From Pararhodobacter aggregans (lineage in GTDB: Bacteria; Pseudomonadota; Alphaproteobacteria; Rhodobacterales; Rhodobacteraceae): a stretch of DNA of 64,000 bases. Under the pieces are notes generated by a model that saw only the letters and a program-made list of their open reading frames with translations, made no database searches and had not been told where the DNA came from. Below, one piece after another: positions 21,140-40,877 of this stretch. The stretch spans positions 372,001 to 436,000 of the forward strand of contig NZ_QDDR01000002.1 of assembly GCF_003075525.1 (NCBI RefSeq), written 5' to 3'. The position numbers and the translations under genes are program-made. Every line of letters starts with the position of its first letter. Position 1 is the first letter of the stretch.

Positions 21140-22240
21140 TCATTCGTCCTCGTCGCTGCGCAGGGTGATTTCGCCGGCCTCGACCAGGTTGCGGACGGCG
21201 GTGACGACGGCGGAAAGCGCGACTTCGGCCTCTTTCGGCTTGATGCGGCCGCGCGATTCGGCCTCGTCCCGGAGCGTCGCGGCCATGCGCTGGGACATGT
21301 TGGACAGAAGGAAGGTCGCGGCCTGCCCGTCGGTGCTGTCCGGCGCGGGCAGGGTGGCGGCGAGGGCGACGATCAGATCGGCCTGCGACACCTCGCGCAG
21401 GATCTTCGGCACGTCGCGCGGGTTCACCCGGTCGGGGATATTGGCGAAGGTGAAGATCGCCTTGCGCACCCCTTCGGCGAAATCGCGGTCGTCCTCCTCC
21501 AGCCCGGTGAGCAGCGTGTCGCGGACCATGGCGGAGGTCGAATTGAGCATGGCGCCGACCCGCGCGGCGGGGGCGGCGGGAAAGGCGCGCGACGGCCTGC
21601 CGTCGATCTCCCGCGCGATGGAGGTGCCGATGCGCGACACCATGTCGGGGGCGATCCCTTCGGTCAGCGAGACGCCATAGGCCACGCGCCGCGCCCTTTC
21701 GCCCGGCATCTTGCCCAGCAATTCCGCCGCCTTGGTGACCGAGAGCTTGGACAGGACCACTGCCGCCACCTCGGCGCTTTCGGGTTCCAGCACCGTCAGC
21801 AGCGTAGCCGAGTCGGTCTGGGCGATGCGTTCCCAGGGGTCGATGCCGTCGCGCGCCTTCTGCCGCAGCCGGGAACTGGCGCCGGGGCTGAGCTTGCCGT
21901 CCAGCGCCTTCAGCGCGCCGCCGAGGCCACCGGCGAAGCTGAGCCCGACCTGTTCCAGCGTCTCCACGAATTCGCCGACCACGGCGCTGAGCGTGTCGCG
22001 GTCGACCAGCCGCATCTGGGCGATGGTTTCGGTCAGGGTGGTCTGCATTTCTTCCGGGAGGGAGGAGAGTTTGACATCCGCCCCTTCGGCGATCAGCAGC
22101 CGGACCAGGATCGCCGCCTTCTGCTTGCCGGTCAGGGCCGGGATCTTGCGGCCCGAGGGGGCATGCGCATGCGCCGGGGGGTGATCGGCCGCGGCGGCGG
22201 CGAAGGAATCGAAGGAAAAAGGCGCGAGTTCCTGGGTCAT
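21140..22240 (-). CDS. fliG: Flagellar motor switch protein FliG, divergent
   Basis: A 366-residue FliG-like protein with three helical armadillo-like segments. The N-terminal part (LTGKQKAAILVRLLIAEGADVKLSSLPEEMQTTL) matches FliG_N. The middle part has EPESAEVAAVVLSKLSVTKAAELLGKMP where typical FliG has an EHPQ motif, so that motif is absent. The C-terminal part (FANIPDRVNPRDVPKILREVSQADLIVALAATLP) matches the torque-generating domain. It ends in an acidic SDEDE tail. FliG links the MS ring to the C ring and receives torque from MotA. No other flagellar gene is in the window. It could be the main FliG of this strain or a diverged second copy. Confidence 0.8.
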   Translation of the reverse strand: MTQELAPFSFDSFAAAAADHPPAHAHAPSGRKIPALTGKQKAAILVRLLIAEGADVKLSSLPEEMQTTLTETIAQMRLVDRDTLSAVVGEFVETLEQVGLSFAGGLGGALKALDGKLSPGASSRLRQKARDGIDPWERIAQTDSATLLTVLEPESAEVAAVVLSKLSVTKAAELLGKMPGERARRVAYGVSLTEGIAPDMVSRIGTSIAREIDGRPSRAFPAAPAARVGAMLNSTSAMVRDTLLTGLEEDDRDFAEGVRKAIFTFANIPDRVNPRDVPKILREVSQADLIVALAATLPAPDSTDGQAATFLLSNMSQRMAATLRDEAESRGRIKPKEAEVALSAVVTAVRNLVEAGEITLRSDEDE

Positions 22241-22325
22241 GGCGTTTCCATTCTGCTTGGCGCACAGCCTGAAGGAACGCGGTTAATCGCCGGATAACAG
22301 GAGAAAAGAATTCAGCGCGGCTTAC

Positions 22326-22339
22326 TTGATCCAGATCAA
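22326..22339. promoter_or_regulatory. Perfect FNR/FnrL box TTGAT-CCAG-ATCAA
   Basis: The palindrome TTGATCCAGATCAA matches the FNR consensus TTGAT-N4-ATCAA in every specified base. Its centre (22332.5) is 41.5 bases before position 22374, and a TATCAC element at 22362-22367 stands where the -10 box of a class II activated promoter reading rightward should be. It therefore probably drives the predicted small RNA rather than fliG, whose start lies 86 bases to the left on the other strand, although an effect on both is possible. Confidence 0.8.
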
Positions 22340-22373
22340 GGTTCGATGCGCGTGCAACGAGTATCACGGTCAT

Positions 22374-22479
22374 CGAAGGGCCGGGCCGATGCCTGATCTT
22401 CAACTCCCGTTTCCGGGCGCACCTCCCTGCGTCTGGCACTGATCCCGCCGCGAGACCTCCCTCTCGCGGCGTTCTTTTT
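22374..22479 (+). ncRNA. Predicted FNR-activated small RNA with two CCUCCC-loop hairpins
   Basis: The predicted transcript is about 106 bases, from the FNR-dependent promoter to an intrinsic terminator. It has no reasonable reading frame. Two stable hairpins are visible: CCGGGCGCA/TGCGTCTGG (22413-22436) with loop CCTCCC, and CGCCGCGAG/CTCGCGGCG (22446-22471) with loop ACCTCCCT followed by TTCTTTTT. A third CTCCC lies single-stranded near 22403. CCUCCC is complementary to Shine-Dalgarno sequences, as in anti-SD small RNAs of alphaproteobacteria. Oxygen control by FNR together with this architecture recalls PcrZ of Rhodobacter sphaeroides (FnrL/PrrA-dependent), but identity with PcrZ is not established here. 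Confidence 0.7.
22446..22479 (+). terminator. Intrinsic terminator of the small RNA
   Basis: A nine-base-pair perfect stem (22446-22454 with 22463-22471), an eight-base loop ACCTCCCT and a U-rich tail TTCTTTTT. It is oriented rightward and stands 49 bases before the convergent ispG stop, so it does not serve a protein gene in that direction. Confidence 0.85.
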
Positions 22480-22527
22480 GGCGACCTGACGGGAAACAGC
22501 GGCGGTATTGCGGCGCCCGCGCCGGGG

Positions 22528-23661
22528 TCAGCCGGCGGCGGGCTCGCTGGCCTTGGCGGCGGCGTCGATCTCGGCCGCGCGCTTCTCGACCAGCTCGACG
22601 ATATGGTCGACCATCCGCTCGTTCGAGAGTTTGTGGTCCTGCTTGCCGGCCATATAGACCATGCCCGAGCCCGCACCGCCGCCGGTGAAGCCGATGTCGG
22701 TCATCAGCGCCTCGCCCGGGCCGTTGACCACGCAGCCGATGATCGACAGCGACATCGGCGTCTTGATGTGGGACAGGCGTTCTTCCAGGATCTCGACGGT
22801 CTTGATGACGTCGAAGCCCTGACGCGCGCAGCTGGGGCAGGAGATGATCTGCACACCGCGGGTCCTGAGGCCCAGGGATTTCAGGATCTCGTAGCCGACC
22901 TTCACCTCCTGCACCGGATCCGCCGACAGCGAGACGCGGATCGTGTCGCCGATCCCGGCCCAGAGCAGGTTGCCCAGCCCGACCGCAGATTTCACCGTCC
23001 CCGAGACGAAGCCGCCGGCCTCGGTGATGCCCAGATGGATGGGGGCGTCCGTCGCCTCGGCCAATTGCTGATAGGCGGCGGCGGCGAGGAACACGTCCGA
23101 GGCTTTGACCGAGATCTTGAACTCGTGGAAATCGTTGTCCTGCAGGATGCGGATATGGTCGAGGCCGGATTCCACCATCGCATCGGGGCAGGGCTCGCCG
23201 TATTTGTCCAGGAGGTGCTTTTCCAGCGAGCCCGCGTTGACACCGATGCGGATGGAACAGCCATGGTCGCGGGCGGCCTTGATGACCTCGCGCACCCGGT
23301 TGGCCGAGCCGATGTTGCCGGGGTTGATGCGCAGGCAGGCGGCGCCCGCTTCGGCGGCCTCGATGGCGCGTTTGTAGTGGAAATGGATGTCGGCGACGAT
23401 CGGCACCGGGCTTTCGCGGACAATCTCGCGCAGGGCCCGGGTCGAGGATTCGTCGGGGGTCGAGACGCGGACGATATCGGCGCCGGCCTCGGCGGCGGCG
23501 ATCACCTGGGCCAGCGTCGCCTTGACGTCCGAGCTGTCGGTATTGGTCATGGTCTGCACCGAGATCGGCGCGTCGCCCCCCACGGGGACGCGGCCCACCA
23601 TGATCTGGCGCGACTTGCGGCGCTCGATGTTGCGCCAGGGGCGGATCGGGTTCAGCGACAT
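22528..23661 (-). CDS. ispG: 4-hydroxy-3-methylbut-2-enyl-diphosphate synthase (flavodoxin)
   Basis: IspG (GcpE) is the [4Fe-4S] enzyme of the MEP isoprenoid pathway that reductively converts methylerythritol cyclodiphosphate to HMBPP. The 377-residue product shows the N-terminal [25 protein letters not shown], the barrel segments [10 protein letters not shown] and [10 protein letters not shown], and the cluster cysteines in [13 protein letters not shown] and [12 protein letters not shown]. The ATG at 23661 begins [12 protein letters not shown]; the frame stays open upstream but enters the terminator region. MEP-pathway isoprenoids feed quinone, carotenoid and, in phototrophs, bacteriochlorophyll synthesis. 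It follows a RodZ-like gene separated by a terminator hairpin. Confidence 0.97.
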
Positions 23662-39791: not shown

Positions 39792-40877
39792 ATGTTGCTC
39801 TTCCTCTTCCGGCGCATCGGGCTGATGCTGGTCACGGCGCTGTGCCTGACCTTCATCGTCTTCGCGCTGACCAACATGCCGGCCAAGCTCGAGACGCTGG
39901 CCAAGACCCAGGCCGGCAGCCGGATGACCGATGCCGAGGTCGACCGATGGCTGGAGAGGAACGGCTACGCCTCGCCCATGCTGGTGCGCTATGGCGAATG
40001 GCTGGGCGTGCTGCCCGGCTGGGTGCGCACCGATGACGGCGGCACCGTCACCGGGCGCTGCGTGGCGCTGCGCGACACGCCCGAGGCCGCGGGCGAGCGT
40101 TGCGGCATCCTGCAGGGCGACTGGGGCTTTTCCACCCGCTTCCGGGCCGGCGTGGCCGAGGTGCTGAGCGCGCGGCTGGGCGCCACGGGCCTGCTGATGA
40201 TGTGGGTGCTGATCGTCATGGTGCCCATGGCGCTGATCGTCGGCATCCTGGCCGGGATGCGCGAGGGCTCGCGCACCGACCGGGCGCTGTCGACCGTCGC
40301 CATCGCCTCGACCGCGACGCCGGAATATGTCTCGGGTGTCTTGCTGATCGCGCTTCTGGCCTCCTCGACCGTCGGGCTGTCGCCCTTGCTGGTCAGCTGG
40401 GGCTGGATCGACGGGCCGGTGCTGTTCCAGGGCAACGCCCGCTCGGCGCTGGAAGACATCACGCTGTCGAACTTCACCCTGCCGGTGCTGACCATCGCGC
40501 TTTACGGCATGGGCTATGTCGCCCGCATCACCCGCGCCTCGATGACCGAGGTGATGACCCAGCAATACATCCGCACCGCGCGGCTGAAGGGCGTGAGCTT
40601 CGGCAAGATCGTCGTCAAGCACGCGCTGAGGAACGCGCTGATCGCCCCCTTCACGGTGATCATGCTGCAGATCCCCTGGCTTTTGAACGGCGTCGTCATC
40701 TCCGAGGTGCTTTTCTCCTACCCGGGCTTCGGCTGGACCCTCTACGAGGCCGCCGTCAACAACGACATCGAACTCCTGCTCGCCTCGTCGGTCGTGGCCG
40801 TGGTCGTGGTGCTGGTCACCCAGCTCATCTCCGACGTGGGCTATGTCTATCTCAATCCCCGCATCCGGATTTCGTAA
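39792..40877 (+). CDS. ABC importer permease, DppB/OppB type
   Basis: A 361-residue inner-membrane permease. The N-terminal helix (LFLFRRIGLMLVTALCLTFIVFAL) and the SxRT-EAA loop YIRTARLKGVSFGKIVVKHALRNAL near residues 258-282 are typical of DppB. A periplasmic loop between helix 1 and helix 2 (residues about 30-120) carries two cysteines (GRCVALRD, GERCGIL). It follows the binding-protein gene by 134 bases and precedes the second permease by 14 bases. Confidence 0.92.
   Translation: MLLFLFRRIGLMLVTALCLTFIVFALTNMPAKLETLAKTQAGSRMTDAEVDRWLERNGYASPMLVRYGEWLGVLPGWVRTDDGGTVTGRCVALRDTPEAAGERCGILQGDWGFSTRFRAGVAEVLSARLGATGLLMMWVLIVMVPMALIVGILAGMREGSRTDRALSTVAIASTATPEYVSGVLLIALLASSTVGLSPLLVSWGWIDGPVLFQGNARSALEDITLSNFTLPVLTIALYGMGYVARITRASMTEVMTQQYIRTARLKGVSFGKIVVKHALRNALIAPFTVIMLQIPWLLNGVVISEVLFSYPGFGWTLYEAAVNNDIELLLASSVVAVVVVLVTQLISDVGYVYLNPRIRIS

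Follow-up and report, generated by a model that had tools for sequence, protein, structure and literature searches.

A conserved small RNA gene with an FNR-type box between fliG and ispG in Pararhodobacter and ctaD as its candidate target

By comparative sequence, the region between fliG and ispG in the 64-kb stretch of Pararhodobacter aggregans DNA analyzed here (the window) is a conserved RNA gene with covarying stems. On balance, we favor the reading that the locus encodes a trans-acting small RNA that is activated by an FNR-type regulator and whose linker silences ctaD, as part of a coherent feed-forward oxidase switch. More tentatively, and with a confidence that falls somewhat short of even, we propose that Rhodobacteraceae hold a hitherto undescribed class of anti-Shine-Dalgarno RNAs under oxygen control at ispG, infC, coxE-xdhC, and macB-like addresses, that its members have the same FNR-type promoter geometry, and that Pararhodobacter evolved a dedicated aa3 seed, giving a two-layer (promoter and RNA) switch. 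The FNR regulon of Rhodobacteraceae is known mainly as protein genes. In R. sphaeroides, unassigned FnrL sites found by ChIP-seq may serve yet unidentified elements (PMC4263372, partial text). A signature of promoter plus hairpins would make it possible to find oxygen-controlled RNAs family-wide, and the ctaD pairing makes the RNA arm of the aa3-to-cbb3 switch a concrete, mutationally testable question.

Table 1. Features of the RNA locus and its neighbors (window coordinates)
Feature	Position	Strand	Remarks
fliG	21140..22240	-	Divergent neighbor; TIGR00207 3e-37, 128.7 bits, below cut-off of 226.7
FNR-type box TTGATCCAGATCAA	22326..22339	.	Seen directly; as TTGATCNANNTCAA in 15/15 genus orthologues
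-10-like element TATCAC	22362..22367	+	22 nt past box; class II spacing
Small RNA gene, ~106 nt	22374..22479	+	Both ends predicted
5' hairpin, outer stem GAAGG/UCUUC, inner stem CCGGG	22375..22401	+	Fold prediction
Linker AACUCCCGUUUCC, proposed seed	22402..22414	+	Core CUCCCGUU at 22404-22411; last two bases paired in hairpin 2 in free RNA
Hairpin 2, 9 bp, loop CCUCCC at 22422-22427	22413..22436	+	Fold and covariation
Terminator hairpin, 10 bp, loop CCUCCC at 22456-22461, then TTCTTTTT	22446..22479	+	Hairpin proper 22446-22471
ispG	22528..23661	-	Convergent neighbor; TIGR00612 and PRK00366 above cut-off

Promoter geometry and predicted fold

A pattern scan of the window for TTGATNNNNATCAA with zero mismatches returned a single site, TTGATCCAGATCAA at 22326 to 22339, which confirms the perfect TTGAT-N4-ATCAA box of the original prediction as the only one in 64 kb. 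The -10-like element, TATCAC from 22362, was likewise found at the expected class II spacing, a mark of FNR-activated small RNAs, and the placement between a divergent fliG and a convergent ispG was borne out. Transcription would start near 22374, in which case the box is centered near -41.5, as in class II activation. A simple sigma-70 scan of 21500 to 23500 reported no promoter-like site. The gene is present as a single copy, no further copy being detected by a DNA search of its own genome.

Two further observations concern sequence words. Allowing up to two mismatches, 20 FNR-like sites were found in the window against 7.5 expected, a number equaled by none of 100 shuffles; this excess perhaps reflects a GATC-type palindrome bias. 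Between fliG and the FNR-type box lies GTTAATCGCCGGATAAC (22282 to 22298), which is close to a CtrA-type TTAA-N7-TTAA site, and similar words occur near the box in several orthologues.

The 106-nt RNA folds at -46 kcal/mol (z = -3.64), and none of 200 shuffled sequences folded as well. Two of its elements, the 5' hairpin and the conserved linker, had been omitted from the earlier reading, which described two 9-bp hairpins exposing CCUCCC. Both loops are there and are unpaired in the predicted ensemble, and hairpin 2 has 9 bp, but the terminator stem has 10. A strong intrinsic terminator was found as predicted, with this 10-bp stem followed by TTCTTTTT. The hairpin at 22446 to 22471 with its T-rich tail TTCTTTTT is the one terminator-like site between 21500 and 23500; since shuffled versions of the same interval yield a mean of 1.5 such sites, its mere presence is not significant. 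Within the linker, CUCCC is unpaired in the predicted ensemble at 0.82 to 0.94, the G of CUCCCG at 0.32, and the next U at 0.51. The final CC of the linker lies inside hairpin 2 in the predicted ensemble of the free RNA, which, like the largely paired G, counts against the linker as a seed.

The predicted length of about 106 nt stood, whereas the claim that this stretch is devoid of an ORF did not, as a 17-codon ORF extends from 22389 to 22442. In the window, this ORF opens with ATG and covers both the linker and hairpin 2, so that the locus might encode a small protein. We regard this as hardly credible, given that the ATG is kept in 3 of 15 orthologues, that the ends of the reading frame vary among the 12 orthologues compared, and that hairpin 2 carries frame-breaking indels.

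Conservation of the locus in Pararhodobacter

BLASTN on 18 genus genomes gave matches in 16, and 15 orthologues were retained after the loci had been read. One match (L029) was left out, as it was not homologous on reading, and two genomes (G298 and G309) were without a match. An FNR-type box of the TTGATC type precedes the RNA in all 15 orthologues, with 57 to 64 nt between box and linker in the 13 that were measured. All 15 have ispG at the same locus, and 12 of them fliG too. Among 84,980 species genomes, a set that may omit records near the window, 12 loci with box and linker were found, and ispG was present at 12 of 12. The record titles of these loci name Pararhodobacter (5), Rhodobacter (1), Rhodobacteraceae (5), and Proteobacteria (1).

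In the alignment of the 15 orthologues, CUCCCGUU in the linker is invariant (15/15). The exact CCUCCC loop is kept in 7/15 sequences in hairpin 2 and in 5/15 in the terminator hairpin. Judged by this alignment, the best-conserved element of the RNA is the linker between the hairpins, not the loops. The conservation that the original prediction expected in relatives therefore holds for the FNR-type box and only partly for the loops.

Covariation was scored on the window RNA's own fold against shuffles and slid structures. As the shuffles ignore relatedness and the fold was derived from one of the aligned sequences, both controls are biased toward that fold. Changes on both sides occurred at 13 of 29 pairs, compared with 5.3 in shuffles and 2 to 7 in slid structures. 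Paired cells in the alignment amounted to 92.4% (87.0% in shuffles and 39 to 45% in slid structures), the covariation score was 0.286 versus 0.189 in shuffles, and 32 further pair types were counted versus 27.1, a value equaled by 3 of 500 shuffles. Within the 5' hairpin, both-side changes affected four of the five inner-stem pairs and none of the five outer-stem pairs. In 8/15 genus members, a TA lies 22 nt past the box. As regards the oxygen-responsive riboregulator originally proposed, FNR-box control is well supported by comparing sequences, namely by the universal box, the covarying stems, and the TA found at this offset in 8/15.

Being palindromic and located upstream of fliG, whose start is 86 nt away, the box could alternatively serve this divergent gene, with the RNA as a by-product. 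FNR and CtrA networks reportedly interact in the same bacterial order, which we counted in favor of this explanation. We nevertheless consider it improbable. On the RNA side, a TA follows the box by 22 nt, both in the genus members mentioned above and, at other addresses, in 17/19 loci of the wider class (see below); one locus (L067) keeps box and RNA with no fliG match in about 2.5 kb on that side; and service to fliG leaves a covarying RNA unexplained.

ctaD as a candidate target

Under the favored reading, a drop in oxygen would lead an FNR-type regulator of the FnrL or CrpK kind to bind the box near -41.5 and to activate transcription. The resulting RNA of about 106 nt would fold into the 5' hairpin, linker, hairpin 2, and terminator hairpin, an arrangement that folding and covariation support. 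Its linker, CUCCCGUUUCC, is complementary to the Shine-Dalgarno region of ctaD, GGGAACGGGAG, and pairing of the two would block translation of this gene for aa3 oxidase subunit I. The CCUCCC loops may provide further, less specific anti-Shine-Dalgarno sites for other mRNAs. The same logic is known from FnrS of E. coli and AniS of Neisseria, two small RNAs that FNR activates and that reduce the production of aerobic functions; both come from other bacteria.

CrpK acts as a negative regulator of coxI in R. sphaeroides, with its peak at chr1 477000-477399 (PMC4263372, partial text), and repression of the aa3 oxidase is mediated by FnrL in Dinoroseobacter shibae (PMC5398030, partial text). The regulator class and the proposed target are thus the same as here, but the control described is transcriptional. 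No small RNA for aa3 repression is named in the parts of PMC4263372 and PMC5398030 drawn on, and the term "small RNA" occurs 0 times in the latter. Because FNR-type regulators also repress the aa3 oxidase promoter in these relatives, promoter repression together with the RNA arm would constitute a coherent feed-forward switch from aa3 to cbb3 oxidase. In Pararhodobacter, an FNR-type box was found 120 to 165 nt before ctaD in 11/16 genus genomes. In the window's own genome, FNR-type boxes lie just upstream of ccoN (cbb3; two of them) and before fixG.

The target pattern was AACGGGAG, the complement of the linker core, placed 3 to 9 nt before ATG. There were 23 such sites in the window's own genome (G000), 16 in G310, and 21 in G304, versus 2, 4, and 2 for the reversed controls; this excess is expected to be mostly what Shine-Dalgarno sequences alone give. 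All sites were inspected in G000 (23/23) and G310 (16/16), and 10 of 21 in G304. An acyl-ligase was shared by all three genomes and an aldehyde dehydrogenase by G000 and G310, with G304 carrying the same leader text (both named by eye). Sites common to G000 and G304 included fixH (Pfam) and, named by eye, a MarR-like regulator, an MgtE-like transporter, and others. Among the sites of the own genome was ctaD, which matched TIGR02891 with 636.5 bits (500 amino acids given), under the cut-off of 670.75. It was picked afterwards for its oxygen biology and is the sole candidate that was followed genus-wide.

We located ctaD in 16/18 genus genomes, leaving out a diverged second copy with a different leader in G306 (L193) and a partial piece (L191). 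AACGGGAG is present in 14/16 of the leaders and GGGAACGGGAGCAA in 13/16, the exceptions being G310 (TACGGGAG), G308 (AACTGGAG), and G309 (one G fewer). The ctaD motif occurs without a detected small RNA in G298 and G309, which speaks against the pairing model; the genomes of G298, G308, and G309 are 70 to 89% complete. The leader of G308 (L189) is the sole one changed inside the GGGAG side of the motif, and no small RNA was found in this genome, which is 89% complete.

The conserved block of the ctaD leader comprises 16 successive columns that are identical in 15 to 16 of the 16 sequences, compared with 5 to 14 in the columns upstream. For control leaders aligned at their starts (13 distinct ispG and 5 distinct fliG sequences), the longest run at 90% was a single column. 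In these alignments, the ctaD leader block is unusually conserved, far beyond a usual Shine-Dalgarno sequence.

Thirteen genomes have both the linker and the ctaD ribosome-binding site. Pairing between them extends over 11 contiguous bases in 11 genomes, over 14 with one bulge in G310, and over 8 contiguous bases in G296. With a 15-nt linker, ctaD of the window genome forms 11 pairs at -19.9 kcal/mol, whereas coxI of R. sphaeroides forms 5 to 6 at -10.2 kcal/mol and three Paracoccus plasmid ctaD copies reach -5.5 to -7.0 kcal/mol with the same linker. In Pseudorhodobacter turbinis, the ctaD leader has no AACGGGAG and still pairs over 9 to 10 contiguous bases at -15.1 kcal/mol, close to the weakest pairings within the genus (-15.5 and -15.6 kcal/mol). 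Among these outgroup sequences, R. sphaeroides differs clearly from the genus and Pseudorhodobacter less so. Because the latter's leader pairs over 9 to 10 bases, the readings of ctaD as target and of a two-layer switch are graded lower.

Whole-RNA duplexes with the ctaD leader, computed by a method that ignores internal folding, did not stand out: in 11 of 13 genomes, over 5% of the 200 shuffled leaders paired equally well, which counts against ctaD as a target. By linker energy, ctaD surpasses 48 start regions of the window (from a crude gene caller) and ranks 6th of 22 AACGGGAG leaders of its own genome. The five leaders that outscore it are L143, L149, L166, L167, and L168; two of them, named by eye as an ABC permease-like gene and an MgtE-like transporter, each form 12 contiguous pairs.

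These rankings bear on an alternative in which the product is a broad FNR-box-controlled anti-Shine-Dalgarno RNA that acts on many mRNAs through its loops, its linker, or both, ctaD not being special. That several leaders outpair ctaD is as expected of such an RNA, as is the fact that the wider class described below has CUCCC loops, and not the linker, in common. RNAs of the alpha-r14 kind also work through redundant anti-Shine-Dalgarno motifs (PMC10746234, partial text). We judge the alternative unlikely, albeit deserving serious attention: within the genus the exact loops are kept in a minority of orthologues (7/15 and 5/15) compared with 15/15 for the linker core, and the ctaD leader block, unlike the fliG and ispG leaders, is conserved well past its Shine-Dalgarno sequence.

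Related loci and known small RNAs

A model of the RNA without the box (R1) was searched in 394 family genomes and matched in 70 of them at E values of 0.01 or below. Two genus members scored 1e-24 or better and all others 2.9e-6 or weaker. Of 28 loci examined from the 68 non-genus genomes with weak matches, a TTGAY-N4-RTCAA box lies no more than 120 nt upstream in 10, where about 0.01 would be expected by chance (estimated for uniform bases). The 18 box-less loci include one (L032) that belongs to the L113 element as its 3' part and two (L035 and L039) with CUCCC loops. A pattern of box plus two CUCCC occurred in 9/295 genomes, one of them the genus member G222, and its reversed control in 0/295.

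A second model (R2) was built from nine such RNAs, all from other genera, and searched in the same number of genomes (394). At E values of 0.001 or below it matched 27 genomes at 29 places, nine of which are the training loci. A box lies within 150 nt upstream at 11 of the other 20 places and not at 9. The boxed 11 include the window RNA, recovered at an E value of 4.9e-4, and that of G222, at 3.3e-5. Together with L043 from the R1 search, the R2 set gives a wider class of 19 loci in 19 further Rhodobacteraceae genera. Membership is defined by an FNR-type box, a TA 22 nt past it, and a CUCCC loop in the terminator hairpin, usually along with further CUCCC places, so the members carry these marks by choice; the window RNA has them as well. 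A TA follows the box by 22 nt in 17/19 members, compared with 0 to 3 for each of the other offsets between 8 and 39. CUCCC occurs in at least two separate places in 15/19; L097, L099, L103, and L112 have it in the terminator only.

The neighboring genes fall into groups. Six genera with a box have infC as neighbor; no FNR-type box is present in the 3.6-kb infC locus of the window's own genome. CoxE and/or XdhC-CoxI family genes adjoin the RNA in six further genera's loci (L043, L097, L098, L101, L102, and L113), and MacB-like permeases in two (L099 and L112), the ORFs having been picked by script in both cases. The longest member, L113 (genome G366, box at about 1773, minus strand), carries, between the CoxE and XdhC genes, several hairpins whose loops are of the CUCCCUCC type, with the FNR-type box and the TA in register. 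As R1 and R2 each retrieve members of the other's set, the model searches suggest that the infC, CoxE-XdhC, and MacB groups share an ancestor with the ispG-linked RNA; alternatively, one design may have been recruited repeatedly. No description of such an RNA class was found in the open-access literature searched, and 15 loci (12 of the class, 2 of the genus, and PcrZ) gave 0 hits at the Rfam cut-off.

The original prediction had also suggested that the RNA is perhaps a relative of PcrZ, which would make it a tuner of photosynthesis genes. The two share the bacterial order, the regulator class, and a similar size, PcrZ being 136 nt long with its start at 2,565,820 (PMC6238624, partial text). 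We compared them in G051, which was taken to be R. sphaeroides 2.4.1 (PufX match of 115 bits). Six stretches under FnrL/CrpK peaks, including hemA, each show a perfect FNR-type box in the stated range in this genome, and PcrZ has a CATAAT -10 element at its published coordinates. No FNR-type box was detected in the 1 kb upstream of PcrZ, one being located downstream at 2,566,006. The 136 nt contain no CUCCC, with CUCCCCC lying just past the end. R1 did not match the PcrZ region at E values up to 10, and R2 had a single partial match across G051 (E value of 0.86). Kinship with PcrZ was rejected on the lack of any sequence or structure match at the published coordinates, and a role as its relative is very improbable, subject to the inferred identity of G051. 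The likeness is that both are small RNAs of the same order; low-oxygen induction is a property of PcrZ and is only predicted for the window RNA.

Stretches under R. sphaeroides FnrL/CrpK peaks were also considered as class members. Five of them (four gene-less ones and RSP_6116) have perfect boxes but, by eye, no CUCCC hairpins within 224 nt, and they were rejected. At L123 (chr1, about 792521), a 10-fold CrpK peak without an assigned gene, a perfect box is followed by TAG 22 nt on and then by a short ORF instead of CUCCC hairpins.

The closest known likeness is to the alpha-r14/cuckoo RNAs, such as NfeR1 of Sinorhizobium meliloti and RSs0680a/CcsR of R. sphaeroides, which are alphaproteobacterial and have several hairpins, anti-Shine-Dalgarno loops, and diverging stems; their three hairpins each carry CCUCCUCCC (PMC10746234, PMC3927594, partial texts). 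By analogy, the window RNA may work like them, and its two CCUCCC loops give it their mark of several hairpins with anti-Shine-Dalgarno loops. Its best Rfam match was the full ar14 model (RF02344) with 19.1 bits and an E value of 0.13, followed by ar7 (17.5 bits, E value of 0.19). The window RNA differs in that its hairpin loops contain only CCUCCC and no CCUCCUCCC, that its score is far under the cut-off of 58.8 bits, and that its linker is most conserved. It was not filed under alpha-r14/cuckoo because it lacks two of the defining features. CcsR is under RpoH control, unlike the window RNA with its FNR-type box. NfeR1 likewise differs, being controlled by LsrB/NtrC (PMC10746234, partial text). 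Elsewhere in the window, the Rfam family Cis52_sRNA (RF02647, Ruegeria) matched positions 40456 to 40632 on the minus strand with 124 bits against a cut-off of 56.
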